Shown: one piece after another, positions 4,169 to 33,464 of the stretch
Position numbering within the stretch: position 1 is the stretch's first letter
How the letters are laid out: every line of letters begins with the position of its first letter
Virus record (IMG/VR): IMGVR_UViG_3300021962_000366
Location: 1-33,464 of that record
Source: a virus
DNA length: 33,464 bases
Direction: 5' to 3' (one strand)
The notes under the pieces: generated by a model
Database searches by the model: none
Told to the model about the DNA's origin: nothing
Seen by the model: the letters and a program-made list of their open reading frames with translations, nothing else
Translations under genes and position numbers: made by a program

Positions 4169-4311
4169 TTTCCGTTTCATACGTTTTCTCCGTTTCTGGT
4201 CACTCCTTCCTATATGTATCTATGCGTTATACACATACATGATATGTTATATTAACATACCTTTCACTTGCGAAGGGTTAGAATAAACGGAGGAAACGGA
4301 TGAAACGGAAA
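4169..4311. other. Inverted repeat of three 9-mers per arm around an AT-rich core: candidate origin or RNA switch
   Basis: The left arm (4169-4195) is three consecutive 9-mers, each ending in CGTTT. The right arm (4285-4311) is the reverse complement of three such 9-mers. The arms match at 25 of 27 positions. Between them lies an AT-rich tract (4209-4260) with an inner inverted repeat TATGTT/AACATA (4243-4259), striking in a genome of roughly 60% GC. The element sits directly after the helicase gene. Iterons plus an easily melted core suggest an origin. Alternatively, the transcript could fold so that the left arm masks the GGAGG (4289-4293) of the 32-aa ORF at 4300. Both are inference. Confidence 0.6.
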
Positions 4312-5637: not shown

Positions 5638-5681
5638 CAACCACTAAGCCACCCATCACCACAACGAAAGAAATGACATGA
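5634..5681 (+). CDS. 15-aa micro-ORF linking two genes
   Basis: The ATG at 5634 overlaps the stop of the 62-aa gene, and its stop overlaps the ATG of the gene at 5678, both as ATGA. The peptide is Thr/Lys/Pro-rich (MTTTKPPITTTKEMT). Its role may only be to carry ribosomes across the gap. It is below the usual annotation cut-off and may not have a function of its own. Confidence 0.3.
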   Translation: MTTTKPPITTTKEMT

Positions 5682-6082
5682 CCGACACAAACACAAACAC
5701 GCGCCTTTCCTCCTCATGGGAACACCTGCCTTGCATTTCGTCCGATTGGTCCAGGCCGTACGCAAACCGATTGCAAACGACGATAGAGGCCGGCAGCATG
5801 AGCGAAATATGTGGCGAGTGGCGCATCGTCAGCCGTCGCGTGAAAACTGGCGAATGGATGGTTTGGAAATGGTGCGGCGCGTTCGGCGATCAAACCGAAA
5901 CGTACGTCACCACGCCAAAAGGCAACCCCACAATCAAAATCATCCCGGGGCCGGAGCGCAAACTGTTTTACTCCCAACAAGAGCGCGGGCCGATCTCGAC
6001 AGTGCAGGGGCGAGATCACGACGACGTGATCTGCCTCTACGCTCGGGTGCGGCCAATCGTCAGGACACGCGCCGCCGCTTGA
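5678..6082 (+). CDS. Hypothetical protein (134 aa)
   Basis: An unrecognised protein with a conserved-looking central region (GEWRIVSRRVKTGEWMVWKW, then GDQTETYVTTPKGNPTIKI) that suggests a small beta-sheet fold. The N-terminal 40 residues are Thr/Asn/Ser-rich and probably disordered. It is the last rightward gene of the early group. Its 3' end overlaps the convergent minus-strand gene at 6037-6285 by 46 bases, with no terminator visible between them. Confidence 0.55.
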   Translation: MTDTNTNTRLSSSWEHLPCISSDWSRPYANRLQTTIEAGSMSEICGEWRIVSRRVKTGEWMVWKWCGAFGDQTETYVTTPKGNPTIKIIPGPERKLFYSQQERGPISTVQGRDHDDVICLYARVRPIVRTRAAA

Positions 6083-6285
6083 TCCCGCGCGCGCCAACGC
6101 ACCGGCGGCGGCACAATCTCTTTGACGCACGCCTCCAACCACGCCGCCACCAGCTCCGGGACCGGAGCCTCCCCACGCGACCAGCGCGTGGGGAGGTTGG
6201 TGTCGCAGTGCAGCAACCGCATCGCGACGTGGCGGCGTGTCCACCCGAGGGCAGACAGGCACTCAACAAAACGGGCGGGGGTCAT
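6037..6285 (-). CDS. Small HTH-like DNA-binding protein (82 aa)
   Basis: The first 50 residues follow a phage Cro-like pattern: MTPARFVECLSALGWTRRHV (helix 1-2), then RLLHCDTNLPTRWSRGEAPV, where LPTRWSRG matches the recognition-helix position of proteins that read (V/L)xRWxxGxxPVP, followed by ELVAAWLEAC. The C-terminus is basic. It is the last gene of the minus-strand operon and has an ACGGAGATACG leader with GGAG about 9 nt from the start. It may be a repressor or a control protein for this operon or the opposing late region. Confidence 0.6.
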   Translation of the reverse strand: MTPARFVECLSALGWTRRHVAMRLLHCDTNLPTRWSRGEAPVPELVAAWLEACVKEIVPPPVRWRARDQAAARVLTIGRTRA

Positions 6286-6327
6286 GGTCGTATCTCCGTT
6301 GGTGGGGTGGTGGGGCCTGGGGTGGCG

Positions 6328-6594
6328 TCAGGCGGTCAGCGCGGCAAACCAGTTTCGGCCAGCGGCGCCCCAGAAAAACTCGGTGGCGTCGCGCAACCCG
6401 TTTTTCGTAACCTGTTCCCAGAGGTCAGAGACATGGCAGACCACGCCGAACCCGTCGCCAGCCCAGAGCGCTTCGGCCTCGGCAAGATCGGCGGCAAAAA
6501 ACGCGATTGCCTCCAAAATTTCGCGGCTGGTTTCGCGGCTGTCAGCGGTGGCGATAAAGTCGGCGGCGGCGGTGGTTTCAACAAATTTTGTCAT
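6328..6594 (-). CDS. Hypothetical acidic phage protein (88 aa)
   Basis: The start MTKFVETTAA is chosen because an ACGGAG ribosome site lies just upstream and the further upstream in-frame ATG (6666) would overlap the neighbouring gene. The protein is rich in Ala, Glu and Phe/Trp (EAIAFFAADLAEAEALWAGD, then DLWEQVTKNGLRDATEFFWG) and probably all-helical. No family is recognised. It is the third gene of the operon running from 7087 to 6037, preceded by a UUCG-loop hairpin. Confidence 0.55.
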   Translation of the reverse strand: MTKFVETTAAADFIATADSRETSREILEAIAFFAADLAEAEALWAGDGFGVVCHVSDLWEQVTKNGLRDATEFFWGAAGRNWFAALTA

Positions 6595-6615
6595 TTCCGT
6601 ATCTCCGTTAGGGGT

Positions 6616-6629
6616 GGGGCCGAAGCCCC
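6616..6629 (-). other. Intercistronic cUUCGg hairpin
   Basis: On the minus strand this reads GGGGCTTCGGCCCC: a five-pair GC stem closed by a C(UUCG)G tetraloop, one of the most stable RNA loops known. It starts 5 nt after the stop of the 70-aa gene and ends 22 nt before the next ATG. No U-tract follows, so it is a processing or stabilising element, or an RNA-polymerase pause site, rather than an intrinsic terminator. Confidence 0.6.
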
Positions 6630-6634
6630 GCAAA

Positions 6635-6847
6635 TCAGATGATCTCGAACTCATCGGGATACACATTCAGATCGAAGCCGCGACTGGCTGGCTTGCCATA
6701 CCAAAGCGACGCCGACTTTTCGCATTCCACGTTGTAAAGAGACGTTTCCCAGCAACGTCCGTAAATCCGCCCAACCGATCCGACATATCCCTTGGCAGTG
6801 ATGCGAACTGTGGTGCCCATCGGGATTTTTTTATTTCCGGTGTCCAT
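6635..6847 (-). CDS. Small beta-rich (KOW/SH3-like) phage protein (70 aa)
   Basis: The sequence MGTTVRITAKGYVGSVGRIY, then CEKSASLWYG and NVYPDEFEII, has the alternating pattern of a KOW/SH3-type barrel. Such proteins are common in phage accessory operons and their function is unknown. A strong Shine-Dalgarno (GGAGG, 9 nt before the start) is present. A GC hairpin lies on either side of the gene within the operon. Confidence 0.6.
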   Translation of the reverse strand: MDTGNKKIPMGTTVRITAKGYVGSVGRIYGRCWETSLYNVECEKSASLWYGKPASRGFDLNVYPDEFEII

Positions 6848-6867
6848 TTTCGTTCCTCCGTTGGGGT

Positions 6868-6881
6868 GGGGCCGAGGCCCC
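6868..6881 (-). other. Intercistronic GC hairpin
   Basis: The perfect inverted repeat GGGGCC/GGCCCC lies 5 nt beyond the stop of the 66-aa gene and shortly before the GGAGG of the next gene. It has the same position and nearly the same sequence as the hairpin at 6616-6629, so the intercistronic spacer seems to have been duplicated with its leader. No U-tract is present. Confidence 0.55.
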
Positions 6882-6886
6882 GGGGG

Positions 6887-7087
6887 TTAGCGGCGGGCCT
6901 TACGGGCATACCGAACCGGCATCGTCCGGTGGATGCCGCTATCGACGCTGAAGAATTCCTCGGCGGGGCGGGTCGCTGCGACTGCGGCGCGGGCTGCGTA
7001 AATCCGCTCGGCCAGGGCGTGCCATTCCGGGGTCATCTGGGTCAGGGTGCGGAGTTCGGCGACCATCTTGGTGATTTGCTTTTCCAT
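6887..7087 (-). CDS. Small helical protein (66 aa), first gene of the minus operon
   Basis: The start MEKQITKMVAEL lies 10 nt after AAGGAA and is favoured over an upstream in-frame ATG at 7147, which lies inside the predicted -10 region. The first 40 residues form an amphipathic helical pair (MVAELRTLTQ, then PEWHALAERIYAARAAV) like many phage small proteins. The C-terminus is basic. No function can be assigned. It is the first gene behind the promoter at 7135-7163. Confidence 0.6.
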   Translation of the reverse strand: MEKQITKMVAELRTLTQMTPEWHALAERIYAARAAVAATRPAEEFFSVDSGIHRTMPVRYARKARR

Positions 7088-7134
7088 CGTCTCGTTCCTT
7101 CCTACCAGGGCGGCCATCCCGTCCTGATAACGAC

Positions 7135-7163
7135 AATCTAGCGACACTGGCCGATGTTGTCAA
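7135..7163 (-). promoter_or_regulatory. Sigma70-type promoter of the minus-strand operon
   Basis: On the minus strand: a perfect -35 TTGACA (7163-7158), a 17-nt spacer, and -10 TAGATT (7140-7135, four of six consensus bases). The -35 is covered by the odd-length palindrome GTTGTCAAC (7156-7164), a possible repressor site. The predicted transcript begins about 40 nt before the first gene. Confidence 0.65.
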
Positions 7164-22440: not shown

Positions 22441-23984
22441 TGGCATACGGACCGCAATCGGTCAGCCTAACTCGGGAAGCTGGCGGCGATCTCGACCTGC
22501 TCGAAGCTATGCGCGGACGCGGCAATCGCATCAAAACGCAGCAGGAAATGCTGCGCGAGCAATCTATGTCGCCGGTGGAAATCGGCAGCTACAACGGAAT
22601 CCAGGGCAAGTTTCCGATCAGCCAGGGGATTAACAAAATCGTGCAGGGGTTGCTTGCGACCTACATGGAATCTCAAGCTCGGGACAAGGCGCAAGCGGCT
22701 GCCGATGCGCAAAAAGACGAAGCTCAGAAATTTGCTGAGGGGTTTGCGGGAACGCCAGCGGTTCAAGGGTCGCGACCGAACACGCCGGAAGAAATTGCTG
22801 CGTATCAAAGTGACGCATCGGATCGGGCGCAGGGAATTGAACCGTATCTTGGCCGCGCGCCTGTGGGGGATGAATTGCCTACACCGCCCATCCCACCTGC
22901 CGGGGCACTGGGGCTTGGCGGACAACCTGCTCGGGAAGCTCCTACGCAAGCGCAACGCACGGCGAGGATAATGCAAGGTATGGGGTCCACTAATTCGCTA
23001 GTGAATCGCATGGCCACGTATCTAAGCGACCAGGATGCGACGGATCGGGCGCGGCAAGATGTGTTGGACGCTCGGGCATTCCAGGCGGGACAGCAGCGCG
23101 AATTGATTGCGGCGAATCGCGATGTCAAATCGGCGGAAACTCAACCGGCGCGGGATGAAACGCAACGGCTGATTGCTCAGGACAAACAGCACAGCGAGGA
23201 GGCGGTTGAGTTTGGAATCAGATACGGGAAGGCTACGCCGGACGAGCGGGCGAAAATGCTAATCGAAGCGCAATTCTCTGCAAATCCGCATCTGGTTAGA
23301 AGCGCGGCGCGTATTAACGAGACGGAGACTAAAAAGGGCGTTGCGGCGACTGCGGCGGAGGCGAAAGCCATGCATGTGCCTCCGCAAGTCAACAGCCAAT
23401 ACACCGATCAGCTTGCGTTGTATAAAACGGGGGTGCGCAATACTGAGCAGCTTGATAAAAGCATTGCGCGATTGGATAGCGGCGAGCTGAAATTTGATCG
23501 GATCAATAATGCGAAAGACAGCGCACGCATTTTCTTCGGCGTGAATGACGAGCAAAGCCGGGCCAAGGCGGAATACCAAAACGACGTAAAACGGTTTGCA
23601 AATGATGTTTTGACGGCGGCGAAGGGGACGCAGACCGAAGGCGATGCTAAGCGCGCTTATGATCAGATTGTCGGCAATATAAACGATCCGGATATCGTTC
23701 GTGTCCAGCTTACAAATCTGCGGCGAATCTCTATGGATCATCAAAACACGGCGGGGACATCCATTAACAATTTAGGGAGAAATTACCCGGGCCTTAGCCA
23801 TGAAAAAGTTGAAATGCGCAAGGCGTCGCCGGAGCCAGCGCCCAAACCAGCCCCTGCAGATGGAGCGAAGGGCACGCAGGGCAATCCTACATTGGTAAAA
23901 ACTATTGCCGAAACGCTAAATTTGCCACCTGGGACGTTTATTAAGCGTCCTGATGGCACAATCGGCCAGGTGCCACCACGATGA
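22440..23984 (+). CDS. Large internal/ejection protein (514 aa)
   Basis: It starts ATG 22440, overlapping the transglycosylase stop. The sequence is highly charged, Gln/Ala/Arg-rich and almost all helical (SQARDKAQAAADAQKDEAQK, and DARAFQAGQQRELIAANRDV), with a Pro-rich C-terminus ending TFIKRPDGTIGQVPPR. It has the size and order of P22 or N4-like ejection proteins, which form a channel across the periplasm. No enzymatic motif is seen. Confidence 0.65.
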   Translation: MAYGPQSVSLTREAGGDLDLLEAMRGRGNRIKTQQEMLREQSMSPVEIGSYNGIQGKFPISQGINKIVQGLLATYMESQARDKAQAAADAQKDEAQKFAEGFAGTPAVQGSRPNTPEEIAAYQSDASDRAQGIEPYLGRAPVGDELPTPPIPPAGALGLGGQPAREAPTQAQRTARIMQGMGSTNSLVNRMATYLSDQDATDRARQDVLDARAFQAGQQRELIAANRDVKSAETQPARDETQRLIAQDKQHSEEAVEFGIRYGKATPDERAKMLIEAQFSANPHLVRSAARINETETKKGVAATAAEAKAMHVPPQVNSQYTDQLALYKTGVRNTEQLDKSIARLDSGELKFDRINNAKDSARIFFGVNDEQSRAKAEYQNDVKRFANDVLTAAKGTQTEGDAKRAYDQIVGNINDPDIVRVQLTNLRRISMDHQNTAGTSINNLGRNYPGLSHEKVEMRKASPEPAPKPAPADGAKGTQGNPTLVKTIAETLNLPPGTFIKRPDGTIGQVPPR

Positions 23985-25699
23985 GCGGCACGCAGAACCC
24001 AATGGCAACTAACGAATCATGGGCGCAATTTGATCTGCCCAGCGGATCAAAAGCGGCATCGACTGACGAGTGGGCGCAATTTGATCTGCCCAAGCCGCAA
24101 CAGTCCGCGTTAGGCCAAATTGCGCGCGGTTTTGGTCTCGGCACGCGCGACGTGTTGGAAGGCGCAGCGAGCTTGCCCGGTCTCGCCTACGACGTTGCCG
24201 CGCTCCCGCTCAACGCAGGCATTGCTGGATACAATGCGCTGACCGGCGGCAACGCCGCATACATTCCAAGCGGATCGCAACAATTCGGGCGCATTCTGGA
24301 CACAGTGGGCCTGCCAAGGGCGGAAAGCACGGGCGAAAAATTCCGCTCCGGGCTTATTCAAGGCGCAGGGAGCGCGTTGACCGGCGTGGGCGCGGCAGGT
24401 GTAGCAGCTCCCGCGATGACTGGCGCAGGGCAAGCGGTGGCTCGCGTTCTGGCGTCGCAACCAGCCATGCAGGTGGCAAGCGGCGCAATTGGCGGCGGAG
24501 TGGCTGAAGCGACAGATAGCCCAGTGGCGGGCCTGATTGCAGGCGCTTTACCGCCTGTTGGCGTTGCCGCAGCGCGTGGGCTCATCACGCCGGTTCGCAA
24601 CGTCAATTTGCCGGGTCGGCAGGCGCTGGTTGATGCGGCGGAACGCGAAGGCATTCCCCTCACGGCAGGGCAGGCAACAGGTAGCCCAATTCTGAAAAAC
24701 GTTGAGTCGGTCCTAGAGCAGATGCCTTTCACGTCAGGGCCACAGCGCGCCATTGGCGACGATCAGCGAGCAAAATTCATTGGAGCGGCTTGGCGCAGGG
24801 CTGGCGAAACTGCAAGCGACACATTGCCGGACACTATTATATCTGCGCGTAACAGGATCGGCGGCCGGATTGGCGAAATTGCCGACCGCAACAATATGAA
24901 TTTCACTCCGCAGCTTGATGCCGACTTGGCGGAAATTTCCGCCAATTTGCGTTTTATGCCTTCCGAAGTAGCTGGGCCAGTTGGCGCGCGCATTGATCAA
25001 TTACGCGGAATGACGATTGGAAAATTCGCTCCTGGGATGCCTGATCCAATTATCCCAGGGCCGTCGTATGGGATGCTGGATAGCCAGATCGGCAAGTCAA
25101 TTCGGCAAACGTCAGACGGCCGAGAGCGCGCGGCGTTAATAGCAATCCGTGAAAAATTGCGTACGGCGATGGATGCCAGCATATCCCCAAGCGACAAAAC
25201 CGAGTGGGACAAGATGCGGCGTCAATACGCGAATATGTCGGTAATTGCCGATGCGGCAGGGCAAGCTGGCGCAAGTGCGGCAGAGGGCGTTATGTCGCCT
25301 GTCGCGTTGCGCGGCGCGTTAACTCGATCCATCGGCAAGGGCAACTATGAGCTTGGGCGCGGCGATCTGAACGAATTAGCGCGTATTGGACAAAGCGTGT
25401 TGCGCCCGCCGCCTGATAGCGGAACAGCGGGGCGGTCATTTGCGCACAACATCCTGACCGGAGCGTTTGGAGTGGGTGGCGCGGGCTTGGGCGCAGATTT
25501 GGGCGGGCCATTGGGCGCGATGGTTGGAGCATCGGTTCCGGTAGTTCTTCCGCGCGTTGCTCAAATGTTGATGAACAGCGGTCTTGGCCAAGCGTACCTG
25601 AAAAACCAGAAAGCGGTTGATCCTACGATAACGGCAAATTTAGCCCGCGCGCTCGCATTGCATGGCGCAATTCAAAACAACAACCAAACAGGCCCATAA
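23981..25699 (+). CDS. DNA ejection / pilot protein (572 aa) with repeated N-terminal motif
   Basis: The start ATG overlaps the previous stop. The first 40 residues carry two copies of (E/D)xWAQFDLP, 17 residues apart. The N-terminal half and the C-terminus hold long Gly/Ala-rich hydrophobic segments (ALTGVGAAGVAAPAM, AIGGGVAEAT, GVGGAGLGADLGGPLGAMVG) suited for insertion in the membrane. The middle is helical. This is the layout of the last ejection protein in podovirus operons, which contacts the inner membrane. The short repeats may be packaging tags. Confidence 0.68.
   Translation: MSGTQNPMATNESWAQFDLPSGSKAASTDEWAQFDLPKPQQSALGQIARGFGLGTRDVLEGAASLPGLAYDVAALPLNAGIAGYNALTGGNAAYIPSGSQQFGRILDTVGLPRAESTGEKFRSGLIQGAGSALTGVGAAGVAAPAMTGAGQAVARVLASQPAMQVASGAIGGGVAEATDSPVAGLIAGALPPVGVAAARGLITPVRNVNLPGRQALVDAAEREGIPLTAGQATGSPILKNVESVLEQMPFTSGPQRAIGDDQRAKFIGAAWRRAGETASDTLPDTIISARNRIGGRIGEIADRNNMNFTPQLDADLAEISANLRFMPSEVAGPVGARIDQLRGMTIGKFAPGMPDPIIPGPSYGMLDSQIGKSIRQTSDGRERAALIAIREKLRTAMDASISPSDKTEWDKMRRQYANMSVIADAAGQAGASAAEGVMSPVALRGALTRSIGKGNYELGRGDLNELARIGQSVLRPPPDSGTAGRSFAHNILTGAFGVGGAGLGADLGGPLGAMVGASVPVVLPRVAQMLMNSGLGQAYLKNQKAVDPTITANLARALALHGAIQNNNQTGP
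24020..24092 (+). repeat. Direct repeat, 22 nt, encoding WAQFDLP twice
   Basis: The same 22 bases (beginning TGGGCGCAATTTGAT) occur at 24020-24041 and 24071-24092, with a period of 51 nt (17 codons). The identity at codon level, with no synonymous change, suggests a recent duplication or strong constraint. Ejection proteins of other phages often open with repeats of an aromatic W-x-x-F motif. Confidence 0.9.
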
Positions 25700-28110: not shown

Positions 28111-28202
28111 AGCGGTTTCGATTGGCTGCCACTCGGTCTCTGGCCTCCGGTTCCACGCGCCTCCCATGGCACAAACGCCCCGCAGTAATTGCACCTATTC
28201 AT
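28107..28202 (-). CDS. Tiny zinc-knuckle-like peptide (31 aa)
   Basis: The peptide starts MNRCNYCGAFVPWEARGTGG, with a CxxC pair at residues 4 and 7, and has a good GGGGGG ribosome site. Both ends overlap neighbours as ATGA: its ATG with the stop of the KOW-like gene and its TGA with the start of the next gene. It shares DNA with the alternative upstream start of the neighbour. A single CxxC cannot hold zinc alone, so it may dimerise. Confidence 0.4.
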   Translation of the reverse strand: MNRCNYCGAFVPWEARGTGGQRPSGSQSKPL

Positions 28203-28561
28203 TGGTCGCCCCCCATTAACGCATTCCACACCTCGCCGTGCCCCAGCCGCCGGGCGATATCGGCCATTTCGTCCACTCCGATATCCGGAATTGGTCGCTG
28301 CGACACAAGCCCGCGAAGGATTTTCCACGCGGCGGACCGTCGAATGTGCTGCCGCCAATGTTCTTCCGACCGACAATACATCACATGCCCGTCGTCGTAC
28401 GGCAGTTCGTGCGTTATTCTCTTTTCCGGAGGTAGTCCGATGTATATGTATTTTTTCCCGGCCCGGATAACAGGCTTGAGATACCCTGGCAATCCGTTGT
28501 ATTTCGGCTGAACCCACACGGTATCGCCTACCGCGATCGGCGCCTTGGCTTTATCGGCCAT
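28199..28561 (-). CDS. KOW/SH3-like phage protein (120 aa)
   Basis: The segment VGDTVWVQPKYNGLPGYLKP then VIRAGKKYIYIG is a beta-barrel (KOW/SH3-like) pattern, followed by a helical C-terminus (DEMADIARRLGHGEVWNALM). GGGAG lies about 8 nt before the start. It belongs to the chain of overlapping minus-strand genes. The function is unknown, though KOW-like proteins often bind nucleic acid or protein partners. Confidence 0.6.
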   Translation of the reverse strand: MADKAKAPIAVGDTVWVQPKYNGLPGYLKPVIRAGKKYIYIGLPPEKRITHELPYDDGHVMYCRSEEHWRQHIRRSAAWKILRGLVSQRPIPDIGVDEMADIARRLGHGEVWNALMGGDQ

Positions 28562-28771: not shown

Positions 28772-28953
28772 CAGCCAGCCCTTTGATAAAATGCGTGCCA
28801 TGCTTTCTCCGCCGCAAGATGGGCTTCCACGGTGTCGGCTTTTAGCGCGGCGCGGTCGAGCTCGCAGCAACGGCGCCAGGCCTGCGCAATTTGAGCTGCG
28901 CGGCTCGGGTCCCATTTCCCGCCCGGGACGACGGCGTTACCCGCGAGTTTCAT
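28771..28953 (-). CDS. Small hypothetical protein (60 aa)
   Basis: The start MKLAGNAVVPGG has a good GAGGGAG ribosome site. The rest is helical (RAAQIAQAWRRCCELDRAAL, then EAHLAAEKAWHAFYQRAG). It is coupled at both ends to neighbours in the minus-strand chain. No function is recognised. Confidence 0.55.
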   Translation of the reverse strand: MKLAGNAVVPGGKWDPSRAAQIAQAWRRCCELDRAALKADTVEAHLAAEKAWHAFYQRAG

Positions 28954-29108
28954 CGTTCGTCTCCCTCGATTGGCGCCGCTCCCCATGTTCCCAGAACCGG
29001 ACGGTCAACGGACTGCCACGCCAGTTCGGCGAGGCCGCCTTTATAAAGGCCGCAGTAGGATTTCATCAGAAGCGCGATGGCGTCTTCGATGCCGGTGGTC
29101 TGGGTCAT
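28950..29108 (-). CDS. Small hypothetical protein (52 aa), first gene of the minus chain
   Basis: The sequence is MTQTTGIEDAIALLMKSYCG then LYKGGLAELAWQSVDRPVLG. The ribosome site GGAG lies 8 nt before the ATG, and the stop overlaps the next start (ATGA). A candidate promoter lies upstream (TTGACG at 29168-29163 with an 18-nt spacer and TAGGGT), but the -10 is weak. The function is unknown. Confidence 0.5.
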   Translation of the reverse strand: MTQTTGIEDAIALLMKSYCGLYKGGLAELAWQSVDRPVLGTWGAAPIEGDER

Positions 29109-29158
29109 GGCGTTCTCCGTTGCGTTGTCGATAACCAGACCCTATCCCGGGGCAATGG

Positions 29159-29237
29159 TTCACGTCAAGTGAATAATCAGGCCGATGTATCATTTTGCAT
29201 TGACGAATGTCGCGCCGCACCTTACATTCACCTCATG
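29159..29237. promoter_or_regulatory. Divergent control region; leaderless rightward promoter and two small palindromes
   Basis: Rightward promoter: TTGACG (29200-29205), a 17-nt spacer, TACATT (29223-29228). The expected start point, about 7 nt downstream, is the A of the ATG at 29235, so the HTH mRNA should have no leader. Palindromes: TTCACGTCAAGTGAA (29159-29173), over the possible leftward -35, and CATTGACGAATG (29198-29209), over the rightward -35. The two sites share GTCA/TGAC in the centre, so one regulator, perhaps the HTH protein itself, could act on both. Confidence 0.5.
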
Positions 29238-29435
29238 GACGCTCTCAAACAGATTAGATTGACGCGCGGCATGGCGGCGAAAATCGCTCGGGCAACCGGG
29301 TTGAGGCCGTCGACCGTATCCCAATGGACGCGCGTTCCGCCGAGCCATCTGCGCGTTGTGTCCCAGGTTAGCGGAATTCCCGCGCATATCTTGCGTCCGG
29401 ATATTCTTGACGGGCCGGGCGTTGGCTGTTTCTGA
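29235..29435 (+). CDS. YdaS-like Cro-type HTH protein (66 aa)
   Basis: The N-terminal part MAAKIARATGLRPSTVSQWT is an HTH, and the C-terminus RVVSQVSGIPAHILRPDIL is the hallmark of YdaS/Cro-like phage regulators (consensus GIPxxxLRPDI). YdaS-type proteins act as Cro-like repressors or antitoxins. No Shine-Dalgarno is present, consistent with translation from a leaderless mRNA. It lies divergent to the minus-strand micro-gene chain and probably controls it (inference). Confidence 0.75.
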   Translation: MDALKQIRLTRGMAAKIARATGLRPSTVSQWTRVPPSHLRVVSQVSGIPAHILRPDILDGPGVGCF

Positions 29436-29676
29436 GCGAATGCTTCGGCTTCTTTTTTCACTCATCGGGAGGGTAGCGTTCGGCGCTTGCCCGATCCGCG
29501 CGTCGATGGCCGCAGCCGGACGCCAGCGCGCGGACTTTTTACCAGTTCGCGGGGTAGAGCGGTGTGCTCCGCTCCCCGCGTTCGCCAGCGACGGGCGCCC
29601 CCCTCGTCCGTCGCTGGCGTCAAGATTGGTCGTGTGTCTCACGCGGCCAGTTCCCGAGCGGCAGGGGTTTTGCCGC
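29434..29676 (+). ncRNA. Array of strong RNA hairpins in the 3' region of the HTH gene
   Basis: There is no credible gene here. Perfect or nearly perfect stems follow one another. H0 (29434-29459) is a bulged stem with a T6 tract after it. H1 (29548-29580) has 6+6 pairs with a 3-nt bulge. H2 (29583-29619) has 12 perfect pairs and a 13-nt loop. H3 (29658-29676) has 6 pairs and a G4T3 loop. All lie before the perfect terminator at 29702-29733, so the HTH transcript would carry a structured 3' tail of about 290 nt. A trans-acting RNA, a stabiliser or a cis-acting antiterminator are possibilities. None is proved. Confidence 0.5.
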
Positions 29677-29701
29677 GCGTTTCCTCCCGAAGGACAACCT
29701 T

Positions 29702-29733
29702 CCCGGCGGCCGCGTGTGCCGCCGGGTTTTTTT
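29702..29733 (+). terminator. Intrinsic (Rho-independent) terminator
   Basis: A perfect 9-bp stem CCCGGCGGC/GCCGCCGGG with a 7-nt loop is followed by seven T. It is oriented rightward. On the opposite strand no T-tract follows, so it does not serve leftward transcripts. It separates the HTH gene from the nuclease/methylase operon. Confidence 0.9.
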
Positions 29734-29753
29734 GGGGGAATGCCAAATAACCA

Positions 29754-29874
29754 AACCCCACAGATCGCGATTGTGGGGTTGCCGGGGCCTTGTCCAACTT
29801 GGCCGCTGGAGGGGGTGCGCCCCCGGCGCCGCGTCCGGCCCGGCTGTGGTGTCGCCCACGGGGCCGGACGCGGC
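29754..29874 (+). ncRNA. Structured leader: three hairpins before the nuclease/methylase operon
   Basis: H5 (29754-29780) is 9 perfect pairs AACCCCACA/TGTGGGGTT. H7 (29811-29824) is GGGGG/CCCCC with a TGCG loop. H8 (29828-29874) is 14 perfect GC-rich pairs with an inner 4-bp stem (GTGG/CCAC). None has a T-tract. The 29899 gene follows 24 nt after H8 with a GGAG ribosome site. No promoter was found between the terminator and the gene. This segment probably forms the 5' leader and might govern read-through or mRNA stability. Confidence 0.5.
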
Positions 29875-29898
29875 ACAACGCAATAACCAGGAGCACAC

Positions 29899-30120
29899 AT
29901 GACAATTGAAATTATCCATCTGTCCGCCGACGTGCCGCTGGCTGAAAATGAGTTCGGTTTGTTGGCCATGTTACCGGACCATGCCGAAGCGATATCCGTT
30001 GCGCGCGAAAGGTTGGCGATTGTTGGAATCGATCTGGCTATCGCTCGGGGCGTTGTCACGCCGCCCGCGCCGCGCCGTCCAGGACGGCCAAGGAAAATCG
30101 CTGCGGACACGCCTGAGTGA
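29899..30120 (+). CDS. Small protein with AT-hook-like tail (73 aa)
   Basis: The first 50 residues are mixed helix/strand (HLSADVPLAENEFGLLAMLP). The C-terminus contains PRRPGRPRK, an AT-hook-like motif (the GRP core with flanking basic residues). It is preceded by GGAG and its stop overlaps the GTG of the nuclease gene. It may bind DNA with the nuclease or act as a control protein. No family is recognised. Confidence 0.6.
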   Translation: MTIEIIHLSADVPLAENEFGLLAMLPDHAEAISVARERLAIVGIDLAIARGVVTPPAPRRPGRPRKIAADTPE

Positions 30121-30629
30121 CCGCGCCCGTACCTGCGCCCGTCCAGCGCGAATGGGCGGATCAAAGGACCTACAAGGCGTTCTTTGACCGCGCCTTGCCG
30201 TTGGACGCGTATTGGACTTCGATCGACATCGGCCGGTCGTCCAGCGCGGTTATCGGCATGATGCGCAAAGCGCGGGGCGTCAAAGCGGGAATTCCAGACA
30301 TCCTTATCGTGTGGCGCGGCGTCACGCTGTGGATCGAGTGCAAGCACAAGGCCAGCTTAACCGAGGCCCAGAAGTTAACGCGCGACCGGCTGACGCAAAA
30401 CGGCCACAGGTGGTGGCTGGCGCGGTCTGGTGAGGACGTGGAGGCCGCGTTGCGCGATGCGGGCATCCCGCTGCGCGCGACGTTCGGCGCGCGCATTGCG
30501 CGGCTGGCCGCGATCAAGGCGAGCAAACCCACGAGAAAAAGAGGATCGCCGGTCGCCTCTGGGACGCCGCGATATTCGATTGGCAAGGCCATGGCGGCGC
30601 GGCTGAGGAAGCGAGGGATTATGGTGTGA
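30117..30629 (+). CDS. VRR-NUC domain nuclease
   Basis: A 170-aa protein from GTG 30117, overlapping the previous stop. It has the PD-(D/E)xK-type VRR-NUC pattern: VKAGIPDILIVW (G58-D61), IECKHK (E74, K76), then LTEAQKLTRDRLTQNGHRWW. The C-terminal extension (KPTRKRGSPVASGTPRYSIG) is basic. VRR-NUC proteins of phages resolve branched DNA (Holliday-junction-type or flap cutting), which fits clean-up of replication intermediates before packaging. The key residues appear intact. Confidence 0.85.
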   Translation: MTAPVPAPVQREWADQRTYKAFFDRALPLDAYWTSIDIGRSSSAVIGMMRKARGVKAGIPDILIVWRGVTLWIECKHKASLTEAQKLTRDRLTQNGHRWWLARSGEDVEAALRDAGIPLRATFGARIARLAAIKASKPTRKRGSPVASGTPRYSIGKAMAARLRKRGIMV

Positions 30630-30643
30630 GCCACCTTTGAACT

Positions 30644-31633
30644 ATGAAATCCCCATTCCCCTATTTTGGCGGGAAATCGCGCATTGCGGCGGACGTGTGG
30701 GCGCGGTTTGGTCCCGTTGCAAATTACGTCGAGCCGTTTTTCGGTTCCGGCGCCGTGCTGCTCAACCGACCCGACGCACCCGGCATAGAGACCATTAACG
30801 ACAAGGACCACTTCGTTGCCAACTTTTGGCGCGCGGTGCAGGCTGACCCGGAAGCGGTTGCGTATCATGCCGAAAACCCGGTCAATGAAACCGACCTTAC
30901 CGCGCGGCATCTGTGGCTGGTTTCGGAGGGCGTGCGGATTATTGAACGGTGCCAGGGTGAGCCGGACTTTTCCGACGCCAAGGTCGCGGGCTGGTGGGCG
31001 TGGGGCCTCTGTTGCTGGATCGGGGGTGGCTGGTGTTCCGGGGAGGGGCCTTGGACGTTTGACGACGGGGAATGGATCAACCGGCAACTTCCGCACCTGG
31101 GGGACGCCGGGCAGGGCGTCAACCGGAAACGCCCGCACCTGGGGAACGCCGGGCAGGGCGTCAACCGGAAACGCCCGAACCTGGGGGACGCCGGGCGGGG
31201 ATCGTCGCTAATCCCCTACATGCAATCTATCGCCAACCGCCTACGCAACGTGCGCGTCTGTTGCGGCGACTGGGAGCGGATATGCGGCCCGTCCCCGACC
31301 TTTAAGCACGGCCTGACCGGAGTATTTCTCGACCCGCCATATTCAGCCGAGGCAGGCAGAGCCGAGGTCTACCGCACCGAGGACTTCACCATCGCGCACC
31401 GGGTCCGGGAATGGGCCATCGAGGCAGGCCGCAACCCGCTGATGCGGGTTGCGCTGTGCGGATACGACACCGAGCACAACATGCCGCCCGACTGGTCCGT
31501 CTTTGCGTGGAAAGCGCACGGCGGATATGGGAACCTGGGTGACGACACCCGAGGGCGTGATAACGCCGCGCGCGAAGTCGTCTGGTTCTCCCCTGCGTGC
31601 CTGCCGCCCGTAATGCAGGATTTATTCGCATGA
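30644..31633 (+). CDS. dam: D12-class DNA adenine N6-methyltransferase
   Basis: A 329-aa protein with the D12-class (Dam) signatures: FGGK (8-11), VEPFFGSGAVLLNRPDA (motif I-like), NDKDHFVANFWRAV, and the catalytic DPPY (230-233), then a conserved VVWFSP near the end. It transfers methyl from S-adenosylmethionine to adenine N6, probably protecting the genome or marking DNA. Residues 146-187 carry three 14-residue tandem repeats absent from bacterial Dam. No matching restriction gene is visible. Confidence 0.88.
   Translation: MKSPFPYFGGKSRIAADVWARFGPVANYVEPFFGSGAVLLNRPDAPGIETINDKDHFVANFWRAVQADPEAVAYHAENPVNETDLTARHLWLVSEGVRIIERCQGEPDFSDAKVAGWWAWGLCCWIGGGWCSGEGPWTFDDGEWINRQLPHLGDAGQGVNRKRPHLGNAGQGVNRKRPNLGDAGRGSSLIPYMQSIANRLRNVRVCCGDWERICGPSPTFKHGLTGVFLDPPYSAEAGRAEVYRTEDFTIAHRVREWAIEAGRNPLMRVALCGYDTEHNMPPDWSVFAWKAHGGYGNLGDDTRGRDNAAREVVWFSPACLPPVMQDLFA
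31079..31204 (+). repeat. Three tandem 42-bp repeats inside dam
   Basis: Units at 31079-31120, 31121-31162 and 31163-31204 each encode 14 residues of the type NRKRPHLGDAGQGV. The bases GCCGGGC and CTGGGG are near-constant. Units 2 and 3 are the most alike over their first 26 bases and units 1 and 2 over their last 19, while the end of unit 3 diverges, a pattern expected from unequal crossing-over. Similar LxHLGxAGxGVN repeats are seen in other phage Dam proteins. Confidence 0.92.
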
Positions 31634-31913: not shown

Positions 31914-31998
31914 CTGTCGAATAACTGTTGCCAGCATATATGCGGTCTGCCAAGACTACAACCGCCGTTTAGAGACGGTTAACCTAACGGAAGGAAAT
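31914..31998 (+). promoter_or_regulatory. Early leader, copy 2: operator and 5' hairpin
   Basis: This aligns with 158-241 over its full length, with one 1-nt indel. The last 35 nt, from GCCGTTTAGAGACGG to AAGGAAAT, are identical. The operator half is less well kept, but CTGTTGCCAG (CTGTTGACAG in copy 1) retains the CTG/CAG inverted core. -35 is TTGCCA (31928-31933) here, TTGACA there. Hairpin CCGTTTAGAGACGG is at 31965-31978. It lies between the repressor (-) and the 32-aa gene (+). Confidence 0.6.
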
Positions 31999-32001
31999 AC
32001 G

Positions 32002-32100
32002 ATGGCCGTGATTGACGCAATTGTCGGGGACGATTTATCGCCTACGGCATGGCAGCGCACGGCGGCCGGGACTGCGGCTATTGAGGAGGGATCGTTATGA
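32002..32100 (+). CDS. Small early protein (32 aa)
   Basis: The ATG follows the conserved AAGGA by 6 nt and gives MAVIDAIVGDDLSPTAWQRT and 12 more residues. It is the first gene of the second early operon. Its stop overlaps the next ATG (ATGA). It could be a leader peptide or a small control protein. No family is recognised. Confidence 0.5.
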   Translation: MAVIDAIVGDDLSPTAWQRTAAGTAAIEEGSL

Positions 32101-33145: not shown

Positions 33146-33464
33146 ATGAAAAAGGCAATCTTGCGGACGAAGCCCGGATGCTATTATTTTGTGAATAGCG
33201 AACGAATAGAGGGCGTTCATACCCGCCTGTCTGGCGACATGACCTGCCTGTCTGGCGACGTGACGGGCCTGTATGGCAACGTGACGGGCCTGTATGGCAA
33301 CGTGACGTACCTGTCTGGCAACGTGACGGGCCTGTCTGGCGACGTGACGGGCCTGTATGGCGACGTGACGGGCCTGTCTGGCGACGTGACGGGCCTGTAT
33401 GGCGACGTGACGTACCTGTCTGGCAACGTGACGGGCCTGTATGGCGACGTGACGTACCTGTCTG
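33146..33464 (+). CDS. Heptapeptide-repeat protein (partial at the right edge)
   Basis: The start ATG lies 1 nt after the previous stop. A 27-residue N-terminal part (MKKAILRTKPGCYYFVNSER then IEGVHTR) is followed by eleven full and one partial repeats of L-(S/Y)-G-(D/N)-V-T-(G/Y). The frame is open to the end of the window, so the C-terminus is missing. The regular 7-residue unit suggests a beta-solenoid-like fold. Similar repeats (LxGxVxG) occur in phage proteins of unknown role. Confidence 0.75.
   Translation, partial: MKKAILRTKPGCYYFVNSERIEGVHTRLSGDMTCLSGDVTGLYGNVTGLYGNVTYLSGNVTGLSGDVTGLYGDVTGLSGDVTGLYGDVTYLSGNVTGLYGDVTYLS
33227..33464 (+). repeat. Tandem 21-bp repeats (11.3 units)
   Basis: The unit CTG-T(C/A)T-GGC-(G/A)AC-GTG-ACG-(GGC/TAC) recurs every 21 bases with no gap to the end of the window. 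Only three codons vary, nearly always between two states; the first unit has ATG for GTG and TGC in the last position. The array extends beyond the right edge. Confidence 0.97.

Follow-up and report, generated by a model that had tools for sequence, protein, structure and literature searches.

A phage leader terminator behind cro with a probable alpha-r8-like small RNA unit in a strong hairpin array

HK022 put is an RNA of about 70 nt with two stems and a conserved sequence. The alpha-r8 RNAs are among the most widespread small RNA (sRNA) families of Alphaproteobacteria, with a seed, a sponge (CrfA) and first phenotypes described only recently; the MmgR and Sis RNAs bind Hfq. Three features in a row define the family, namely a weak hairpin, 10 unpaired nucleotides (UUUCCUCCCU) and a Rho-independent terminator; it is in these sRNAs that the motif has its known function (PMC12559287). 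A phage sRNA of another kind is StxS, which derives from a terminator, being the product of pR'-tR' termination in Stx phages (reviewed in PMC7873438). How does a dense series of hairpins between the cro-like gene and the early operon of a phage compare with these systems? Is it an antitermination leader, an insulator, or the source of a small RNA?

The window, that is, the whole stretch of 33,464 nt analysed here, is a viral contig (33.5 kb) that carries portal, capsid and terminase genes as well as one for a Sak4-like protein. Between the stop of cro (29435) and the next start (29899) lie about 463-465 nt in which no gene is credible; a reading frame of 48 aa that begins just past the terminator and ends at 29886, lacking a spaced Shine-Dalgarno sequence, was dismissed. 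The features of this gap and its flanks are collected in Table 1. The sequence-only reading of this DNA had seen no promoter of its own for the VRR-NUC/Dam operon, and a sigma-70 consensus scan bears this out: the only such site in 28900-30200 is the one in front of cro, and none stands directly upstream of the alpha-r8-like unit described below, with the proviso that alphaproteobacterial promoters may differ from this consensus.

Table 1. Features in and around the gap behind cro (positions in the window)
Feature	Coordinates	Strand	Basis
Promoter-like site, TTGACG-17-TACATT; 5' of cro, likely start of the leader transcript	29200..29228	+	consensus match only
Cro-like regulator, YdaS-type HTH, 66 aa	29235..29435	+	phrog_35 E 5e-6; YdaS_toxin below Pfam cut-off
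Weak terminator-like hairpin, C(UUCG)G loop, U6, directly 3' of cro stop	29438..29458	+	sequence; folding not beyond chance
CGGGAGG, perfectly complementary to seed positions 29683-29689; candidate anti-seed upstream	29466..29472	+	sequence; fold 29235-29733
8-bp perfect stem, then ACUUUUU; terminator-like	29495..29541	+	sequence, repeats
Hairpin, 7+5 pairs	29548..29580	+	fold
Hairpin, 15 pairs including one G-U, 7-nt loop	29583..29619	+	repeats, fold
Hairpin, 13 pairs including G-U	29624..29652	+	fold
Hairpin, 7 pairs, directly 5' of seed; first element of alpha-r8-like unit	29658..29676	+	fold, Rfam alignment
UUUCCUCCC, alpha-r8 core (9 of 10 nt of UUUCCUCCCU), anti-Shine-Dalgarno-like seed	29680..29688	+	
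Intrinsic terminator, 9-bp GC stem, 7-nt loop, U7; proposed sRNA 3' end	29702..29733	+	
GGGGGAA behind U-run; pairs with seed on read-through	29734..29740	+	fold
9-bp perfect hairpin, downstream leader	29754..29780	+	repeats
5-bp GGGGG/CCCCC hairpin	29811..29824	+	sequence, fold
14-bp perfect hairpin just 5' of next ribosome binding site	29828..29874	+	repeats
Downstream operon gene 1, 73 aa, no assigned function	29899..30120	+	
Nuclease/resolvase-like protein	30117..30629	+	phrog_824 E 1e-18; phrog_93 endonuclease; VRR-NUC type per sequence-only reading
D12-class adenine methyltransferase (Dam-like)	30644..31633	+	profile matches

Elsewhere in the contig, several features stand apart from the array. 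An 89-nt upstream/5'-UTR module (GCCGTTTAGAGACGGTTAACCTAACGGAAGGAAAT) precedes two operons (158-246 and 31914-32003, 82% identity), recurs in the relative L017 and has the look of a control region that is shared and conserved. Between operons, some 1.5 kb (5640-7160) lack long plus-strand genes and hold several minus-strand starts, each behind a ribosome binding site of a similar AACGGAGATACG type, with a minus-strand promoter-like site at 7163-7135. A 143-nt stretch (4169-4311) is self-complementary (72% identical to its reverse complement), and tandem repeats (NRKRPHLGNAGQG) occupy 31077-31200 within the Dam-like methyltransferase gene, with a similar run in the relative L031. Both contig ends are repeats (1-150, GC-rich short tandem repeats; 33217-33464, a repeat family in a coding frame), so that a gene may be missing: the contig may have been cut at these repeats and hence be incomplete. 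One kb from the RNA array, the minus strand (28199-28561) encodes a protein that matches the 'Phage ProQ C-terminal-like' domain PF24203 at 38 bits, which may point to RNA binding.

How unusual are these hairpins? The series of strong stems that the sequence-only reading had described by eye is real and mostly as described, being recovered by both folding and repeat searches, and its impression of exceptional density and perfection holds up against dinucleotide-shuffled controls, to which the whole gap is clearly superior (-257 kcal/mol, z = -5.2, none of 100 shuffles as good). The excess is uneven. The first 110 nt or so (29434-29545) fold no better than chance (z = -0.03), the bulk of the signal comes from 29546-29678 (z = -5.9), the stretch 29540-29745 reaches z = -6.6 (0 of 200 shuffles as good), and 29734-29898, behind the terminator, gives z = -2.4. 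By perfect stems of at least 8 pairs the gap ranks first among the 450-nt stretches of the window, with 52 pairs versus 28 for the next; in a sliding 200-nt fold scan the array is among the best stretches, yet not the single best. The hairpin array is a structured leader/trailer between cro and the early operon.

The array has a recognisable core at 29658-29733, in which a hairpin is followed by UUUCCUCCC, unpaired, and then by an intrinsic terminator, as in the architecture of alpha-r8 (RF00519). The core itself, UUUCCUCCCG at 29680-29689, has 9 of the 10 bases of UUUCCUCCCU; the hairpin upstream of it (29658-29676), with 7 pairs, is stronger than the 'weak hairpin' of the family, and the Rho-independent terminator (29702-29733) lies directly downstream. 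In Rfam, run in permissive mode, RF00519 is the best bacterial-sRNA match of the region (29665-29741, full model 1-77) with 21.5 bits, about half the gathering cut-off of 41 bits. Searched as a single family it yields the sole match at E <= 1 in the 33-kb record (E 6e-4), and in four kin phages it matches at their own copies of the unit (26.7, 28.3, 20.4 and 14.9 bits); some weak RF00519 match is likewise obtained in 13 of 14 control genomes. Because the curated cut-off is not reached, the unit is referred to here as alpha-r8-like and is not filed as a family member. Judged by its sequence and predicted fold, the array core appears to be a phage form of alpha-r8 (MmgR/SuhB), a small regulatory RNA of its alphaproteobacterial hosts. 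Among the options raised by the sequence-only reading, that of a phage small RNA gains support, given that the terminator, the seed and the hairpin upstream of it together reproduce the alpha-r8 architecture and recur in kin phages.

The unit accounts for only part of the structure of the array, because no homologue of the flanking hairpins (the three strongest at 29548-29652 and two long ones downstream of the terminator) was found and the kin have no equally strong array. Indeed, BLAST of the array against 50,697 phage records returned no similar sequence, and the arrays of the kin are weaker than that of the window, except in L078 (z -5.7). The hairpins around the unit could serve antitermination.

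Is the unit peculiar to this phage? A local search, made before and independently of Rfam, showed that several of the kin reached through the Sak4-like gene share GTTTCCTCCC, then 8-17 nt, a GC-rich hairpin and a U-run (29679-29733 in the window). Across 463 kb, comprising the window together with relatives that had been retrieved through their proteins and with no regard to the motif, GUUUCCUCCC has five sites (four independent) and a terminator comes next at all five, a test that 19 of 6000 random positions pass (0.3%). The 10-mer GTTTCCTCCC was found five times in the same set versus 0.9 expected by chance, and L016 carries a variant with CTTCCTCCC. Scanning IMG/VR for the pattern gave 37 viral contigs, of which about 29 show the unit architecture; the scan demanded GGGnG behind the U-run and is uninformative on the frequency of that feature. 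Six loci exceed the RF00519 cut-off. The Bradyrhizobium phages ppBeUSDA76-1 (62.8 bits), ppBdUSDA122-1 and BDU-MI-1 carry the unit in unannotated gaps, and among bacterial genomes the same pattern occurs mainly in Alphaproteobacteria. Two further copies have settings of their own: L061 (at 728; 46.5 bits) has the unit between the genes for the small and large terminase subunits on a small viral contig, and L081 (at 3018; Microcystis phage record OM681334) has it beside an integrase and a tRNA-like sequence, where it may be a piece of an attachment site or of host flank; the assignment to a Microcystis host looks doubtful.

Comparative evidence for the fold itself comes from a Bradyrhizobium set of six sequences, in which five pairs of the named helices changed on both sides, a number reached by 1 of 500 shuffles; this support is modest and concerns the shared unit, not the array of the window. 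When 28 phage units were aligned with MAFFT the core aligned and the terminators did not, and RNAalifold returned no structure because the terminators fail to align. Relatives found via the nuclease, cro or the protein at 23981-25699 gave no loci, nor did a Sak4 search of genome contigs. The relatives of the methyltransferase have the related gene without a hairpin array in front of it, and in L031 the genes come directly after cro. Hairpin-dense spots in other relatives (L037 at 8051, L035 at 3501, L018 at 3101) proved unrelated to the array.

Where do phages keep this unit? It lies behind cro in the window and in L025, 85 nt behind an HTH regulator in L016 and in a CII-containing region in L086. 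L078, L079 and L103 have it between a 'transcription antiterminator' gene (phrog_6386), which is a NusG paralogue by Pfam, and HNH/terminase genes, and in seven of eight close relatives of the L079 protein it follows the NusG-paralogue gene by 175-187 nt. Other copies precede DNA helicase or methyltransferase genes. These locations beside regulators and antiterminators, repeated across phages, therefore place the unit at phage operon-leader terminators, the places of lambda tR1 and tR'.

What would such a terminator do besides ending transcripts? The best explanation, in which as a whole we place moderate confidence, is that the terminated product of the leader terminator is a phage small RNA that mimics the host family. 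Polymerase starting at the cro promoter would stop at 29702-29733 in some rounds, and the terminated RNA, or a piece of it cut after about 29540, would expose the seed UUUCCUCCC. Once exposed, the seed would work as it does in the host RNAs, probably on Hfq, and pair with mRNAs of host or phage at ribosome binding sites rich in G and A. On read-through the downstream operon (73-aa protein, nuclease, methyltransferase) would be expressed, and the GGGGGAA behind the U-run would fold back and mask the seed. Folding is consistent with such a switch: in terminated RNA the predicted probability that the seed is unpaired is 0.84 when the RNA starts at 29540 and 0.71 when it starts at 29655, versus 0.23 on read-through to 29745, where GGGGGAA pairs with the seed. 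In an RNA starting at cro (fold of 29235-29733) the seed is masked even when terminated (0.09 unpaired), partly by CGGGAGG at 29466-29472, and therefore the RNA must be assumed to be cut, or to start, within the gap. How general would masking be? Behind the U-run, GGGnG(G) is present in every one of the five Sak4 kin, found without selecting for it, and GGGnGG is absent in three of the five phages found by BLAST (L078, L079, L081), which were not selected for the motif either. Within the phage, the best plausible starts for pairing between seed and ribosome binding site are 32012 (-12.7 kcal/mol) and the Sak4 gene at 247 (-12.1), both with CGGAAGGAAAU; this pairing is not counted as evidence, because any anti-Shine-Dalgarno seed would do likewise.

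Could the terminated RNA simply be waste? It would be if the hairpins at 29548-29652 formed a cis-acting leader for processive antitermination, loading the polymerase or a phage or host factor so that the terminator is ignored, a reading that we regard as unlikely on balance. At lambda nutR-tR1 and HK022 putR, too, cro is followed by structured RNA, a terminator and an early operon, and the strongest structure of the gap sits just upstream of the terminator. The Bradyrhizobium and Roseomonas units directly follow a NusG-paralogue gene, one of them (L078) with an array of its own, and LoaP, a NusG paralogue, requires a leader hairpin (PMC12691694). However, 29400-29900 does not resemble any part of the HK022 genome (best E 0.7), and boxA-like heptamers, as expected of a lambda nut site (boxA plus boxB), are absent in 29200-29900. 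Neither a NusG paralogue nor a Q-family protein turned up on the contig, which may be incomplete, in searches for PF02357 and PF06530. The upstream hairpins are not conserved in the kin, and the reading leaves unexplained why a conserved host sRNA core stands at such terminators. Thus, of the cis-acting antiterminator that the sequence-only reading had likened to put, the likeness to HK022 does not stand, while the principle is possible, as the unit follows a NusG-paralogue gene elsewhere.

The stack of stems might also do no more than separate the cro unit from the operon (29438-29458, 29495-29541 and 29702-29733), with UUUCCUCCC incidental. Three arrangements of stem and U-run do fall within 300 nt, and tandem terminators are common in compact genomes. 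Such an insulator is nonetheless improbable, as GTTTCCTCCC precedes a terminator in four independent members of the unselected kin set versus a background of 0.3%. In addition, where the motif has a known function, this is in alpha-r8 sRNAs (PMC12559287). That the hairpins act as DNA, in a packaging or replication signal (an origin or recombination hot spot) or as REP-like repeats, is very improbable: the palindromes are perfect and GC-rich, but each is unique within the window, where repeated or strand-symmetric sites would be looked for, none has a similar sequence in the phage records searched, and the one-strand U-run signature of the terminator points to RNA; the structural packaging RNA once suggested for the region finds no support either.

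Returning to the small RNA proposed for the leader terminator, the recurrence of the unit at the operon-leader terminators of other phages suggests that those terminators also make host-mimicking RNA. A broader proposal, tentative and held with rather low confidence, is that alphaproteobacterial phages have repeatedly built the alpha-r8 core into the terminators of early and late operons, so that failed antitermination would yield an RNA imitating the nutrient-control sRNAs of the host and read-through would turn the operon on and hide the seed. A search through the full text of 5.39 million open papers found no description of phage-borne alpha-r8 RNAs. The alpha-r8 core in many unrelated phages, at sites of the antitermination type, offers a concrete and testable case of phages using or diverting the sRNA network of the host, and the position of the unit, beside cro or NusG-paralogue genes, is a first hint of how operons may be controlled without a recognised lambda N/Q system.

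How does the locus stand beside the described systems? Like HK022 putR and lambda nutR-tR1, the array comes after cro and before a terminator and early genes; unlike them it has neither HK022 sequence nor boxA, and its hairpins far outnumber the two of put. The setting of LoaP-type NusG paralogues, with the paralogue, a structured leader and a terminator, is found in unit-bearing Bradyrhizobium, Roseomonas and three IMG/VR phages, whereas the contig of the window has no such paralogue in view. With StxS the unit would share the principle that a phage leader terminator gating an operon also makes a regulatory RNA (for the window this is proposed), and the Bradyrhizobium and Roseomonas units have that same position, with an antiterminator gene on one side and late genes on the other. 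The sequences are unrelated, the phage unit resembling a host sRNA family, and the unit of the window sits behind cro, before an early operon, with an RNA that is predicted. From alpha-r8 (MmgR of Sinorhizobium meliloti, SisA-D of Caulobacter, RF00519 suhB) the phage unit differs in the tenth base of its core, G and not U, in its diverged linker and hairpin sequences, and in its position behind cro within a longer hairpin array with no promoter of its own seen; it shares with them the order of hairpin, single-stranded UUUCCUCCC and intrinsic terminator and, over a full-length Rfam alignment, a length of about 77 nt.
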